Shown: positions 51,456 to 56,180 of the stretch, in pieces
How the letters are laid out: each line of letters starts with the position of its first letter
How positions within the stretch are numbered: the first letter of the stretch is position 1
Source: Actomonas aquatica
GTDB lineage: Bacteria > Verrucomicrobiota > Verrucomicrobiia > Opitutales > Opitutaceae
Reading direction: 5' to 3'
DNA: 64,000 nucleotides
Assembly (NCBI RefSeq): GCF_019679435.2
Contig: NZ_CP139781.1
Coordinates: 5,762,001-5,826,000 of the forward strand
The notes under the pieces: model-generated
What the model saw: only the letters and a program-made list of their open reading frames with translations
The model's database searches: none
Told to the model about the DNA's origin: nothing
Made by a program: the position numbers and the translations under genes

Positions 51456-52304
51456 TCAGAATTTCAGGTGCTTGAGGGTGAGGCCCTGGTTGATGAGCTG
51501 GTTGAGCGAGGCGATGCCGATCTTGAGGTGATCGGTGACGTAGGCGTCGTCGACCTCCGCATCGCTCTCGGCGGTTTTTACGCCTTCGGGAATCATCGGT
51601 TGGTCGCTGACGAGGAGAAGCACCCCGGTGGTGATCTCGTTGAAAAAGCCGGTCATGAAGATGGTGGCCGTCTCCATGTCGATGGCGATGGCGCGGATCT
51701 TCTTCAGGTAGCTCTTGAACTTGGCGTCATGTTCCCAGACGCGGCGATTCATGGTGTAGACCGTGCCGGTCCAATAATCGCGGGCAAAGTCGCGGATGGT
51801 GGTCGAGATCGCCTTCTGCAGGGCGAAGGAGGGCAGGGCGGGCACCTCGGGCGGGAAGTAGTCGTCGCTCGTGCCTTCGCCGCGGATGGCGGCGATGGGC
51901 AGGATGAGGTCGCCGATCTCGGCGCGGTGTTTGAGTCCGCCGCATTTGCCGAGGAAAAGCACGGCTTTGGGCGAGATGGCGGTGAGCAGGTCCATCACGG
52001 TAGCGGCGGTGGCGCTGCCCATGCCGAAGTTGATGATGGTGATGCGGCCGGCAGTCGCAGACGTCATGGCCTTGTCCTTGCCGCGAATGGGCACGCGGTG
52101 CCAGCGGGCAAAGAGTTTCACGTAGCGATGGAAATTGGTGAGCAGGATGTGGTCGCCAAACTCTTCGAGCGGCACGCCGGTGTAGCGGGGCAGCCAGTTT
52201 TTGACGATCTGCTTGCGGGTTTTGAGGCCTTTCGCGGTGGGTGAATTCACGGGCGAAGAGGAGCGGGGAGCGGAGGCAGCGGCAGACGTAACGGGCTTGG
52301 GCAT
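51456..52304 (-). CDS. amn: AMP nucleosidase-like protein
   Basis: 282 residues. It is the phosphorylase/nucleosidase fold: I-T-I-I-N-F-G-M-G-S-A-T-A-A-T-V-M-D, V-L-F-L-G-K-C-G-G-L, G-D-L-I-L-P-I-A-A-I-R-G-E-G-T-S, a late I-A-I-D-M-E-T-A-T motif and S-D-Q-P. It corresponds to the catalytic half of AMP nucleosidase, which cuts AMP to adenine and ribose 5-phosphate; the roughly 200-residue N-terminal regulatory half of the E. coli enzyme is missing. The short Ser/Ala-rich leader (1-25) looks disordered. Other nucleosidase specificities are possible. Confidence 0.85.
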   Translation of the reverse strand: MPKPVTSAAASAPRSSSPVNSPTAKGLKTRKQIVKNWLPRYTGVPLEEFGDHILLTNFHRYVKLFARWHRVPIRGKDKAMTSATAGRITIINFGMGSATAATVMDLLTAISPKAVLFLGKCGGLKHRAEIGDLILPIAAIRGEGTSDDYFPPEVPALPSFALQKAISTTIRDFARDYWTGTVYTMNRRVWEHDAKFKSYLKKIRAIAIDMETATIFMTGFFNEITTGVLLLVSDQPMIPEGVKTAESDAEVDDAYVTDHLKIGIASLNQLINQGLTLKHLKF

Positions 52305-52480
52305 AATTTGCCGCGAAAGCTAAACAGAGGCGGACATTTGTCGATGCCTCTTGCCGGGGAAGCTGCGCGGAAAAACAGGGCGGTAGGAATTGCCGGGTGC
52401 GGGGAGAAATTTCAGTGAGAGACGATCGTGTGATTAGTGGAGATTTCTTAAGTAGCTGATGGGAGATGGGTTAAAACTAT

Positions 52481-52496
52481 TGGCACGTAGGTTGCA
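52481..52496 (+). promoter_or_regulatory. Perfect-consensus sigma-54 promoter
   Basis: TGGCACGTAGGTTGCA matches TGGCACG-N4-TTGCW at every specified position, with GG (52482-52483) and GC (52494-52495) 10 nt apart. Transcription should begin near 52507, only about 6 nt ahead of ATG 52513. That rules out the ATG at 52459, which lies upstream of the promoter. It would drive the helical-protein and actin-like genes together. No enhancer palindrome was identified in the 176 nt upstream. Confidence 0.85.
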
Positions 52497-52512
52497 TAAG
52501 CTTTGGGCACCT

Positions 52513-53007
52513 ATGATCCACTCGCCTGTTTCGACCCCGGTTCCCGTTGCTTCGGCTGATGCGCTTTGGCGTGAAATCAGTGAAGCGGCGCACGAGAGCT
52601 GCCTGGCCAAGTGCACCGGGCGGCACCGGGACGCTCGGCAGTTGATGGAGCATACGCTGCCGCTGGTGATTCGCGAATGGTCGCAGGTTTGTGGCCTGCC
52701 GATGGCCGAGCGCAAGGAACGCCTGCGCAAACTCTTCGCCCAAGTGCAGGAGCGGGTGGCCTCTGCGGTCATCAGCCGCCGCCTGGCCGAGGAAGGCCTG
52801 CCGCCGGAAGAGCGCCGCAACCGCGCGCTGGGTCGCCCGATGCAGCTAAGCCGTCGCATCCCGATTCATGACGTCGCCGGGATGATCGATGCGCTCAACG
52901 AGATGGAGCAGCGCTGGAACCCCGCCGCGGCTCGCCCCCAGCCCGCAGTGCTCACGGCGCCGACCCGTTCCCAATCCCTTTCCAACCGCGCTTTGGTCAC
53001 CGCCTGA
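52513..53007 (+). CDS. Small helical protein co-transcribed with the actin-like gene
   Basis: 164 residues from ATG 52513, chosen because the sigma-54 promoter ends 16 nt before it. An N-terminal Pro/Ser/Val linker leads into long amphipathic helices (A-D-A-L-W-R-E-I-S-E-A-A-H-E-S-C, R-E-W-S-Q-V-C-G-L-P-M-A-E-R-K-E-R-L-R-K-L-F-A-Q-V-Q-E-R). A loose Pro/Ala/Ser tail closes it. No family recognised. 68 nt separate it from the actin-like gene. A filament adaptor or regulator is the natural guess, but only from position. Confidence 0.7.
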   Translation: MIHSPVSTPVPVASADALWREISEAAHESCLAKCTGRHRDARQLMEHTLPLVIREWSQVCGLPMAERKERLRKLFAQVQERVASAVISRRLAEEGLPPEERRNRALGRPMQLSRRIPIHDVAGMIDALNEMEQRWNPAAARPQPAVLTAPTRSQSLSNRALVTA

Positions 53008-53075
53008 GCCGTAGTGAAAAATCAGATACCAACCAACTCAACCAACCAAAAACCACGTTATCGAAAGTCAGATCA

Positions 53076-54206
53076 ATGAGCACCAAAACCACCAACTCCT
53101 CCAAGGCCAAGGTCCTTACCGCCGACCAGTCCCTCACCCAGAACGCCCCCCTCCTCGTCGGCTTCGACTGGGGCACCAACATGTCCCGCATCTACGGCGC
53201 GCCGCTCGGTTCCAAGACCGCGACGGTCGATGAGAGCATCCCGACCGTGGTCGGCTACGCCAAGGACGAAGTCCTCGCCGGCGTGATCCCCGGTGACGAG
53301 AAAGTCCTCTTTGGCGCCATGGCCAACAAGCACAAGTTGCACCTCAACCTGGTCCGTCCGCTCGAAGGTGGCGTGATTCAGGACACCAAGGCCGCCCGCC
53401 TTTTTGCCCAGCACATCAAGTCCAAGCTCGGCGAGGATGCGTCCGAAGTGCGCGCCGTCATCGGCATGCCGGCCAGCTCCGATCTCGAGGCGCGCGAAAA
53501 CGCCCGCGAGGCCGTGCACGGGGTGTTCAATAAGGTGCTCTTCGTGCCGGAGCCTTTCCTCGCCGCCCTCGGTTACCGCGAGGAAGACAAGCTGCAGGAC
53601 ATCGATTATCAGGATCCCGTCCTCAACTCCCTTTACGTCGATATCGGTGCCGGTTCGGCCGACGTCTGCCTCGTGCAGGGCCACTATCCGACCACCGAGG
53701 ATCAGCTCACCACCAAGGTGGCGGGCGACACGGTCGACCGCATCATCCTCGACAAGATTCTCGCCGCTTACCCGGATTGTGGTCTCACCCTGCCGCGCGT
53801 GCGCACCATCAAGGAAAAGCACTCCTGGGTGCTCAGCGAAGACGCCGCCACGCCGGCCATCGCGACCATCATGGTGGGCGGCAAGCCCCGTAAGATCGAC
53901 GTCACCACGCAGGTCGGCGAAGGTTGCCAGGCGTTGCTCGAAGAGGTCTTCAACATGACCAAGGAGCTCATCGCCCGTGCCGATCCCGACAGCGTCGAGG
54001 AGCTGCTGCAGAACGTCATCGTCACCGGTGGTGGCAGCCTCATCAAGGGCTTCGGCGTCGCGCTGCAGACCAAGCTGCTCGAGGAAGGTTTTGAAAACCC
54101 GCGCGTGCATGTGCTCGGCGACAACTACAAGGACTTCGTGGCCAAGGGCGCGCTCAAGACGGCGTCCCGTGCTCGCGAAGACCAGTGGCAGTCGCTGCTC
54201 GACTGA
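53076..54206 (+). CDS. MamK-like bacterial actin
   Basis: 376 residues. Actin-fold motifs: phosphate-1 G-F-D-W-G-T-N (29-35; Trp where MreB has Leu), phosphate-2 Y-V-D-I-G-A-G-S-A-D (187-196) and adenosine motif V-I-V-T-G-G-G-S-L-I-K-G (314-325). Over the whole length it resembles MamK more than MreB, ParM or FtsA: R-P-L-E-G-G-V-I, A-V-I-G-M-P-A, T-E-D-Q-L-T-T-K-V-A-G, I-K-E-K-H-S-W-V, V-G-G-K-P-R-K-I-D-V-T and L-L-Q-N-V-I-V. A 25-residue disordered N-terminus precedes the fold. It should polymerise with ATP. A terminator follows. No magnetosome genes are in the window. Confidence 0.8.
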   Translation: MSTKTTNSSKAKVLTADQSLTQNAPLLVGFDWGTNMSRIYGAPLGSKTATVDESIPTVVGYAKDEVLAGVIPGDEKVLFGAMANKHKLHLNLVRPLEGGVIQDTKAARLFAQHIKSKLGEDASEVRAVIGMPASSDLEARENAREAVHGVFNKVLFVPEPFLAALGYREEDKLQDIDYQDPVLNSLYVDIGAGSADVCLVQGHYPTTEDQLTTKVAGDTVDRIILDKILAAYPDCGLTLPRVRTIKEKHSWVLSEDAATPAIATIMVGGKPRKIDVTTQVGEGCQALLEEVFNMTKELIARADPDSVEELLQNVIVTGGGSLIKGFGVALQTKLLEEGFENPRVHVLGDNYKDFVAKGALKTASRAREDQWQSLLD

Positions 54207-54362
54207 GCGCCACGTGTCGTATGTCGCGCGATCGATTTGAATTTTAGTTTAGCGATGGGCACGCAGCGGGAAGTCGCTGCCACGATGGAACGGACTGCGT
54301 GCCCCTTAATTTGGAGTTTCCCGGCGGTGGTTGCCGTCGGGATGATCTGACTCCGTTGGTAT

Positions 54363-54393
54363 CAGCCCTCGGCTTTCGAGCCGAGGGCTGTTT
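54363..54393 (+). terminator. Terminator of the actin-like operon
   Basis: Perfect 12-bp stem CAGCCCTCGGCT (54363-54374) and AGCCGAGGGCTG (54379-54390) closed by a TTCG tetraloop, then TTT. Confidence 0.88.
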
Positions 54394-54437
54394 GCCGTCT
54401 GGGGGCGGGGGACGGGGCGGATGGGCGTCGGGCTGAC

Positions 54438-54475
54438 GCACTGGAACGACGCCGCCGGGGACGTCGGCGTCCACC
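54438..54475. repeat. Solo copy related to repeat family B
   Basis: GACGCCG (54448-54454) and CGGCGTC (54465-54471) form the same hairpin as family B at 33216-33505, followed by CACC. It lies 10 nt past the stop of the PhoD-like gene. Confidence 0.6.
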
Positions 54476-54484
54476 TGGGTTGCG

Positions 54485-55873
54485 TTAATTGCCGGACGGC
54501 AGCTGCAGGTCGCTGAGTTTGATGACCTGCTCGAAGCGCGTGTCGCCTTGTTTGTCGATGCAGGTGACGAGTAGCTCGCGTCGCTTGCCTTCGCCGCGCA
54601 CGTCGATGCGCACGAAGTTTTGGTCGCCCACCAGCGTGCCGGGGATCACGTAAGGGTCTTCGGCTTTGCTGCTGGTTTCGACCGGCCAAGAGCCGCTGCT
54701 CAGCGGCGACGAGGTGATGTCGTAAACCATGCGACCGTCGGAGAGTTTGCGGTGATACATGGCGCTGTGGTGCACGTCGCCGGTGAGAAAGATCACGCCC
54801 TCGATCTGGTTCTCGACGATGAAGTCGAGCAGCTCTTCACGCTCGCGGCGGTAGAGCTCGTGGGGCTCGCCGCGGGGCTCGGTTTGGAGCATCTGATTGC
54901 CGGTGGCGATGAAGAGGAATTTGAAGTGCTTCAGCTCCTTGGCGGAGAGGAGAGATTGTTTGAGCCACTCCAGTTGCGGGCGACCCCATTGGGTTTTCTC
55001 GGGGTGTTTGTCCTGATCGAGACCGGCGGCGTCGCGATGGTAGTGATTGTCCATCAGGAAAAACGCGGCGTCGCCCCAGTAGAACTTGCTGTAGACGCCC
55101 GGGTTGTTGGCTTCGCCGTAGGTGTGGTTGCCCCAATAGGCTTTGAAGATGTCGAGTGCGACGTCCTTGTATTCGTAGGACCAGTTGGAGTCGTTGGGAC
55201 CGTAGTCGTGATCGTCCCAGGTGGCGTAGTGGTGCATCGTGCCGAGCAGCTTCTGCATCTCGGGAATGGCGCGGTCGTGCATGGGGCGATACCAGAGGCC
55301 GCTCACGGAATCGTAGTCGGGTTCGCGCCAATACCAGTTGTCGCCGGTCCAGACCATAAACTCGGCGTCGCTCTCGCCCATGAGTTCGAAGGTGCGGGTG
55401 GTCTTGCCGTAGCCTTCGCCGGGGCGGTCGAACTCGGGTTCGTTGATGTAGGCGCAGGAGCCGAAGAGGAAACTGAAGTCGGGGGGCGAGGTGCGCCATT
55501 CCCAGAGCTCCTGCGTGGAGAACGTCGGCGTGGCGGCGAGGGCCTGTTCCTGACCGTCGATGGTGATCGCGTAGCGATAGGTGCCGCCCATCTTGAGCAG
55601 ACCGGGACGGAAGTGGTGGATCTGGCCGCCAGCCGGATGGACGGGCACGTCGGTGTGGGTGATCGTGTGTTTTTCGTCCGGCTGATTCACCAGCCAATAG
55701 GTGAGGGTGACCTCCTCGGCGTCCTTGGTTTCGAGCCAGAGGAAAACCTCGCGGTGCGCGCGGTAGCCCAGCATGGGACCGGACACGATCTCACCGGCGA
55801 CAAGAGCGGAGGCGAGGGAGAGGAAGAGGAGAGCGGGAGCGACGACAGCGCGGAGGCGCGAAGGCAGGTGCAT
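54485..55873 (-). CDS. PhoD-like alkaline phosphatase/phosphodiesterase, secreted
   Basis: 462 residues from ATG 55873 with a signal peptide (ending A-S-A-L-V-A-G). The N-terminal third is a beta domain. The metallophosphatase core follows: F-G-S-C-A-Y, V-W-T-G-D-N-W-Y-W-R, T-W-D-D-H-D-Y-G-P-N-D, D-N-H-Y-H-R-D and L-T-G-D-V-H-H-S-A-M. The Cys, Asp and His ligands for the Fe3+/Ca2+ centre of PhoD enzymes are in place. It releases phosphate from phosphomonoesters or diesters outside the cell. It has no obvious Pho box upstream; a repeat array occupies that space. Confidence 0.88.
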   Translation of the reverse strand: MHLPSRLRAVVAPALLFLSLASALVAGEIVSGPMLGYRAHREVFLWLETKDAEEVTLTYWLVNQPDEKHTITHTDVPVHPAGGQIHHFRPGLLKMGGTYRYAITIDGQEQALAATPTFSTQELWEWRTSPPDFSFLFGSCAYINEPEFDRPGEGYGKTTRTFELMGESDAEFMVWTGDNWYWREPDYDSVSGLWYRPMHDRAIPEMQKLLGTMHHYATWDDHDYGPNDSNWSYEYKDVALDIFKAYWGNHTYGEANNPGVYSKFYWGDAAFFLMDNHYHRDAAGLDQDKHPEKTQWGRPQLEWLKQSLLSAKELKHFKFLFIATGNQMLQTEPRGEPHELYRREREELLDFIVENQIEGVIFLTGDVHHSAMYHRKLSDGRMVYDITSSPLSSGSWPVETSSKAEDPYVIPGTLVGDQNFVRIDVRGEGKRRELLVTCIDKQGDTRFEQVIKLSDLQLPSGN

Positions 55874-55960
55874 GGCGGCGGACGCTGGGGGGGCGCGCTC
55901 CAAAAAGCAAAACCGGAGCCGCCGGTGGGCGTGACAATTTGGAGCCGCGCGGGGGGGCAT

Positions 55961-56180
55961 GCCGAGGCTGGAAGCCTCGGCCACGGGGGGCGGGTGTGGC
56001 CGCGGCATCTTGCCGCGGTGTTGGCTGACCGGGCGGTGGAGTGGCCGGGTGGTGAGCGCCGAGGCTGGAAGCCTCGGCCACGATGGACTTGTGTGGCCGC
56101 GGCATCTTGCCGCGGTGTAGGCTGACCGGGCGGTGGAGTGCCCGTGTGGTGGACGCCGAGGCTGGAAGCCTCGGCCACGG
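55961..56180. repeat. Tandem palindromic repeat, family C: 2.2 units of 97 bp
   Basis: The palindrome GCCGAGGC-TGGAA-GCCTCGGC occurs at 55961-55981, 56058-56078 and 56155-56175, exactly 97 bp apart. Between copies lies a second palindrome, CCGCGGCA-TCT-TGCCGCGG, and a GCTGACCGGGCGGTGGAGTG segment. The last copy ends 18 nt from the lipA stop. It fills the 320-nt gap between the PhoD-like gene and lipA and is unrelated in sequence to families A and B. Confidence 0.87.

Follow-up and report, generated by a model that had tools for sequence, protein, structure and literature searches.

A small helical protein accompanies the bacterial actin BeeR in gene order, loss and decay in Actomonas aquatica and its relatives

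We analyzed a 64,000-nucleotide stretch of the Actomonas aquatica genome (the window), in which an actin gene and a small upstream gene lie between two genes encoded on the opposite strand. The features of this locus, with the evidence for each, are as follows:

51456-52304, minus strand: AMP nucleosidase, a neighbour
52481-52496, plus strand: sigma-54-like -24/-12 element TGGCACG-TAGG-TTGCA, an exact consensus match just before the partner gene
52513-53007, plus strand: partner protein, 164 aa (open reading frame; homologues upstream of BeeR)
52540-52806, plus strand: approximate N-terminal three-helix domain of the partner (alignment to the AlphaFold2 model of a homologue, L029)
52870-52896, plus strand: C-terminal motif DVAGMIDAL of the partner, a proposed BeeR-binding helix (conservation in the partner alignment)
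53076-54206, plus strand: BeeR actin, 376 aa (open reading frame, actin ATPase motifs, NCBIfam, PDB match, tree)
54363-54390, no strand assigned: 12-bp perfect inverted repeat downstream of BeeR (repeat search)
54485-56008, minus strand: PhoD-like phosphatase, a neighbour

Because both neighbours are on the opposite strand, the co-directional unit consists of two genes, the partner and BeeR. The preliminary description of this DNA had given the actin a small helical protein, a phosphatase and AMP metabolism as neighbours in a non-magnetosome setting. All are indeed present, and the immediate neighbours identified are not magnetosome genes, but the phosphatase and the AMP nucleosidase are not part of the unit; the gene for the small helical protein precedes the actin gene in the same direction, 68 bp away. 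An alternative partner start at 52459 would give 182 aa, and that at 52513 is preferred since many relatives begin 27-38 nt past the sigma-54-like element. The inverted repeat at 54363-54390 lies between BeeR and PhoD, which converge, and may be a terminator; a terminator scan did not flag it. Repeats in 54200-54500 are limited to direct ones that are imperfect and two-copy, and to three short inverted pairs.

A sequence search placed the actin fold of the window protein far above chance, its top solved relative being the BeeR filament of Opitutus terrae (PDB 8r2n, E 9.9e-102). The protein scored 551.8 bits against the NCBIfam equivalog for BeeR (NF053558, cut-off 530) and is thereby a member, as against 208.7 bits for the MamK model (NF040964, cut-off 400) and 56.2 bits for the MreB model (cut-off 293), both below their cut-offs. 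No ParM model was among its family matches. In a quick tree of 69 rows, from which ParM was absent, the window actin fell within the BeeR rows in an eight-row set (support 100), 14 MreB rows formed a separate side of a branch (support 100), and the sole MamK row, whose branch is very long, joined the BeeR rows at an unresolved basal fork. Both a MamK and an MreB reading are thus ruled out by the models, the tree and the structure search; a separate MreB-like gene is encoded in the genome.

These results bear on the earlier description of the protein as MamK-like and not MreB, which had rested on four motif blocks. All four are present (TEDQLTTKVAG, IKEKHSWV, GKPRKIDVT and LLQNVIV), similar blocks occur in the aligned MamK chain (PEDQVTLTKAG, VKEQFSFV, GKPVRADVT and VLQNIVF), and blocks related to them are common to BeeR proteins. 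The protein is nearer to MamK than to MreB, as had been proposed, but it is not MamK itself, and by models and tree it is BeeR. MamK (PDB 5LJW) is its closest characterised actin after BeeR, with sequence blocks in common; the window actin, however, is below the MamK cut-off and well inside the BeeR rows, whereas MamK lies outside on its long branch. The further suggestion that the actin was undescribed does not survive, because the equivalog, the 8r2n match and the tree place it in another known clade. By its sequence, then, the window actin is a BeeR family member and thus known in kind.

A 2025 paper describes BeeR as a three-stranded tube unlike the other bacterial actins described, states that its function is unknown, and reports ATP-driven polymerisation for the O. 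terrae homologue (PMC11929497). Among the matches listed in a literature search whose scope lay outside preprints and most subscription journals, there was no other paper on BeeR. The O. terrae protein (UniProt B1ZZL4, PDB 8R2N; PMC11929497) belongs to the same family as the window actin, with ATP-site motifs present, and one of our loci (L007) encodes a protein identical to 8r2n over all 386 residues. Window BeeR is ~44-46% identical to O. terrae BeeR, and its ATP-binding and hydrolysis residues are conserved in a 14-row BeeR alignment. The positions that are invariant or nearly so in these 14 proteins (G29, D31, G33, T34, E159, D189, G191, G193, D196 and G318-S321) are what we take to be the nucleotide-site columns. 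In window BeeR no more than 25 residues stand ahead of the family match; the disordered N-terminal extension of BeeR is given as 30-50 residues (PMC11929497).

The residues that join the strands of the published tube are a different matter. Window BeeR matches two of the 12 published cross-strand residues (Glu141 and Leu375) and the L007 protein ten; a three-stranded tube can therefore not be assumed for window BeeR. Most of these residues vary in our 14-row alignment, and most are said to be conserved among BeeR orthologs (PMC11929497). The L007 protein has His and Gln at the numbers of the published cross-strand residues Arg252 and Asn380, perhaps through a numbering slip in the paper.

We then mined genome samples for BeeR. 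It was found in 17 of the 387 genomes of a phylum-wide sample, at 493 bits or more and always in the window's order, the non-BeeR matches (E 1e-20 or better) reaching at most 91.3 bits among the matches listed. Many other BeeR loci, at 422-526 bits, fall below the cut-off of 530, yet no other actin in the phylum sample comes near them (at most 91.3). An order sample of 132 genomes, some of them shared with the phylum sample, contained BeeR in 19. Within the family, 16 of the 36 genomes listed in the phylum sample encode BeeR, and a genome of the window's own genus (G372) does not. This distribution suggests that BeeR is patchy even within one genus and restricted to one order in these samples, in contrast with the BeeR paper, which states that it is highly conserved across the phylum (PMC11929497). 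A few BeeR loci carry the titles of other groups, which we took as labels of metagenome-assembled genomes (MAGs). One MAG, BP4.bin29, has two BeeR genes (L049 and L055), one with a partner upstream and the other in a partner-less clade. An unannotated phage record from human faeces (MT835608.1, 22344-23309, minus strand) encodes a distant actin-like protein, 25.7% identical over 93% of the BeeR query.

To examine the pairing of the two genes, we scanned BeeR loci in named genomes (the best 80 of 104) with a profile built from 15 partners. At 68 of the 80 loci a co-directional partner homologue immediately precedes BeeR, and three of the 12 misses (L085, L087 and L100) have no more than 66 bp of upstream sequence each. 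When these loci and the window were clustered by BeeR identity, the pairing was retained in 46 of the 54 clusters formed at 85% and in 17 of the 23 formed at 70%. Among the first 15 pairs read, the two genes overlap by 4 bp at one extreme and are 89 bp apart at the other. At L007, the locus of the solved sequence, a 153-aa partner (L007 2703-3164, minus strand) lies 47 bp upstream of BeeR; the main text of the BeeR paper makes no mention of an upstream gene or of neighbouring genes (PMC11929497). As the pairing seeds and a 61-partner alignment included some genomes that were later searched, a cross-clade profile served as a check: one from 11 window-clade partners recovered these and 47 of 58 others, and nothing else, among 3870 open reading frames. 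A Pelagicoccus-clade profile recovered 41 of 62 other partners, with only one of 28 in the Opitutus clade. On these profile matches, homology of the partner across clades is real.

Besides the partner and antisense shadow reading frames, no gene recurred near BeeR in more than five of 23 clusters (best 80 of 104 loci plus the window), and the BeeR unit is thus one of two genes. The partner is not universal, since six BeeR loci (L050, L052, L056, L060, L074 and L080) lie in genomes, of unstated completeness, in which none was detectable; likewise, the genome of L087, where BeeR is at a contig edge, and G012 gave no partner match. Loci L049, L050, L052, L056 and L060 form a BeeR clade without an upstream partner, and several of its N-termini resemble MRTTYVPPLTAETAKD.

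The partner was also followed across whole genomes. In the 387-genome sample it was matched in 18: all 17 BeeR genomes, in each of which its coordinates place it beside BeeR, and one other (G409). Several intact partners in this search were listed with one internal stop, which in G126 is the gene's own end. In G409 the partner carries four in-frame stops and adjoins a BeeR remnant in which only the first 57 residues are detectable, between flanks resembling those of its intact relative G325. The 132-genome order sample contained both genes in 17 genomes, BeeR alone in two (G012, and G131 with BeeR at a contig edge) and the partner alone in four. Absences of the partner are provisional in both samples, as for many genomes (up to 26 in the order sample and 9 in the phylum sample) first-look candidates were scored only in part. 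The four partner-only genomes comprise G070 (a weak match), G086 (where the contig ends inside the partner), G118 and G130. Fisher values, with kinship ignored, were 9e-29, 2e-9 and 9e-16. The BeeR remnant in G409 (C2; L162 2744-2914), with its partner pseudogene, is a natural knock-out useful for dating joint decay.

Loss and relocation gave a similar picture. In G372, which has neither BeeR nor partner, 49 bp separate PhoD from the AMP nucleosidase, and the flanking genes are close to those of the window (AMP nucleosidase 88%, PhoD 80% and LipA 91% identical). Clean loss of both genes from G372 is the likeliest history, because three other loci (L026, L027 and L029) keep the operon adjoining the AMP nucleosidase, as in the window. 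In two genomes the partner lies apart from BeeR, with its C-terminal motif kept in one (G011) and degenerate, outside our pattern, in the other (G015). In G118 and G130, which count as one event since they share a genus, the partner is present with no BeeR match and the motif is absent. The open N-domain frames in these two genomes (G118:C1:23743-24084 and G130:C17:94333-94659; L134 and L133) lie by a gene whose product, judged by eye, resembles a CoaBC-type flavoprotein. The partner thus follows BeeR through linkage, relocation, loss and decay, and the conserved gene pairing looked for in relatives is found.

No family was found for the window partner in Pfam, NCBIfam or PADLOC. Pfam searches over 42 members gave scattered weak matches only (best E 4e-4, in one member), and the best PDB sequence match had an E of 0.94. 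Structure matches of the N-domain were uninformative, with a best Foldseek E of 2.6 and a best VIA-align Z of 7.5, in the range typical of common helical arrangements. Judged against Pfam, NCBIfam, PADLOC and PDB, outside which further families may exist, the sequence suggests that the partner is a new, previously undescribed component of the BeeR system. The AlphaFold2 model of the L029 partner alone (pLDDT 87.2, pTM 0.61) has helices at 12-36, 40-62 and 66-102 (pLDDT 82-98 in blocks of ten), followed by a linker of lower confidence and, at 125-149, a C-terminal helix. We aligned 61 and 42 hand-chosen members, leaving out near-duplicates and broken frames. Cys30 of the 164-aa form is nearly invariant in the N-domain of the 61-row alignment; the most conserved positions (L029 numbering) are W21, R29, C32, W58, L73 and F77 in the first three helices and I/V125, I/L129 and D/E130 in the motif.

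An actin and a small protein, encoded by two genes and lost together, would also fit a DNA-segregation cassette of the ParMRC kind, in which BeeR pushes partner-bound DNA. In ParMRC, however, the adaptor ParR has a ribbon-helix-helix fold, whereas the partner model is all-helical and lacks the corresponding strand. Nor were centromere-like repeats met beside the operon, a search of the upstream interval 52290-52530 having found no direct or inverted repeats. Window BeeR is located on the genome's single 6.1-Mb contig, plasmid and phage records gave distant actins only (21.8-27.1% identity in the 14 of 18 matches listed), and a search of IMG/VR for a BeeR-like actin had no match. PADLOC and the plasmid and phage records lent no support to a defence, phage or plasmid setting for the pair, and we regard a segregation cassette as scarcely plausible.

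In the partner's C-terminal motif, residue D126 is nearly invariant in 61 rows, and 65 of 69 partners carry the pattern [ILVMF]xx[MILVFY][ILMV][DEN]x[MLIVA] within their final 75 residues (shuffles: mean 3.8, maximum 13), a count that measures conservation only, since the pattern was drawn up on the same 69 sequences. The four partners without it, all kept in the count, are two near-misses (L059 and L032), one that is masked with a broken frame (L089), and L053, probably read in the wrong frame at its end. The motif probably forms a short helix, set off from the N-domain by a linker that varies.

At some loci the partner and BeeR share one frame with a single stop between them, and we modelled such a read-through fusion from L029 with AlphaFold2 (stop read as Ser, 546 aa, 94-row alignment), obtaining a pLDDT of 88.7 and a pTM of 0.74. 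The fusion model lends no docking support to the motif, because the confidence of the C-terminal helix (91, 89 and 81) equals that without BeeR (91, 87 and 82); the mixed alignment used 94 of 112 prepared rows, in which the motif columns are empty for many partner-only rows and aligned in 21 read-through rows. A pTM of 0.74, as against ~0.65 estimated for BeeR alone, gives a hint of some placement of the partner against BeeR in the model.

FtsA binds the FtsZ tail, and the C-terminus of ParR binds ParM. These systems parallel the BeeR pair in the way they work only, with an actin-fold protein and a short C-terminal stretch of its partner. The tail motif of FtsZ is D[IV]PxFLR-like, and the FtsZ of the window genome ends LDVPTYLRKGIKINL, loosely like the DIPGMLDAL forms of the partner. 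FtsZ and the partner also share a layout of globular domain, variable linker and tail peptide, but the partner is not a tubulin. On this likeness the motif could mimic the FtsZ tail and bind FtsA or another reader, the partner making no contact with BeeR, which would be a co-expressed division or envelope factor. FtsZ, however, was found in 13 of 14 control genomes without BeeR as well as in the window genome, and is thus independent of BeeR, whereas the partners of two BeeR-less genomes lack the motif, and one partner has decayed. In addition, the hydrophobic pair is followed by an acidic residue in the partner and by a basic one in the FtsZ of the window genome, and we hold such mimicry to be very improbable.

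Our preferred reading, which we consider fairly probable, is that the pair forms a stand-alone two-gene BeeR actin-adaptor module in which the C-terminal motif of the partner holds BeeR. The second gene would supply the BeeR actin, polymerising with ATP, and the first an adaptor acting together with it; the partner's C-terminal motif would bind the BeeR filament or its subunits, and its N-terminal three-helix domain a separate target. The filament could then be positioned, nucleated or loaded via the tethered adaptor, with the cargo and the direction of recruitment left as suppositions. The earlier proposal that the helical protein serves as an adaptor gains from the conserved pairing, on which the protein appears to act as an adaptor or other partner. 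A partner that regulates assembly would fit the gene order, the strict co-occurrence and the tracking of the motif with BeeR equally well; its C-terminal helix would bind the monomer or a filament end and nucleate, cap or sever, and its N-domain would only multimerise. Small helical bundles like the modelled N-domain may be able to oligomerise. Yet in G118 and G130, which have neither BeeR nor the motif, the N-domain frame stays open, which suggests a role of its own for that domain, and we think regulation of assembly unlikely.

The actin-adaptor module may be under conditional control in part of the group. The element at 52481-52496 is presumably a sigma-54 promoter element, as it matches the consensus exactly, and RpoN is encoded in the genome. 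Exact sigma-54-like sites number five in the 6.1-Mb genome against one for a control pattern, and six against two with a looser pattern. We assigned our own weights to the element (maximum 24.5) and scored the upstream regions of 69 partner loci (from the best 80 of 104 plus the window): 22 reached at least 21, against none of 69 on the reverse strand, and 21 of these 22 lie at -51 to -67 nt from the start of the partner domain. Lower scores fill the control (at least 20, 30 versus 3; at least 18, 49 versus 20; 69 loci). In 22 hand-chosen rows, the TGGC-N9-GC core stands 27-38 nt before the partner ATG in 17, further away in three and was not seen in two, and the 27-38 nt spacing implies a very short leader. 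Beyond the window's clade only a few others carry the elements, which are missing from most other loci. To judge from these sequences, transcription of the pair in the window's clade and some others appears to be driven by a sigma-54 promoter, with a very short leader or none. The other four exact sites lie by ABC permease or efflux genes and others (by eye), with no clear functional lead; three of the five fall within 26 kb (G000:C1:802028, 812042 and 827897; L147 and L148), amid many MacB-like ABC permeases (by eye).

A fuller version of the actin-adaptor reading is put forward tentatively, as a possibility: a previously undescribed adaptor would grip the BeeR tube by a short linear motif and use its helical domain for cargo, and in part of the group the pair would be a near-leaderless operon under sigma-54 control. 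If this is true, the pair in part of the group would be a signal-switched actin machine, not a housekeeping filament. The sigma-54-like promoter suggests conditions in which to study BeeR, and the partner, inherited and lost with BeeR and found also beside the solved O. terrae BeeR, provides a direct handle on BeeR function.
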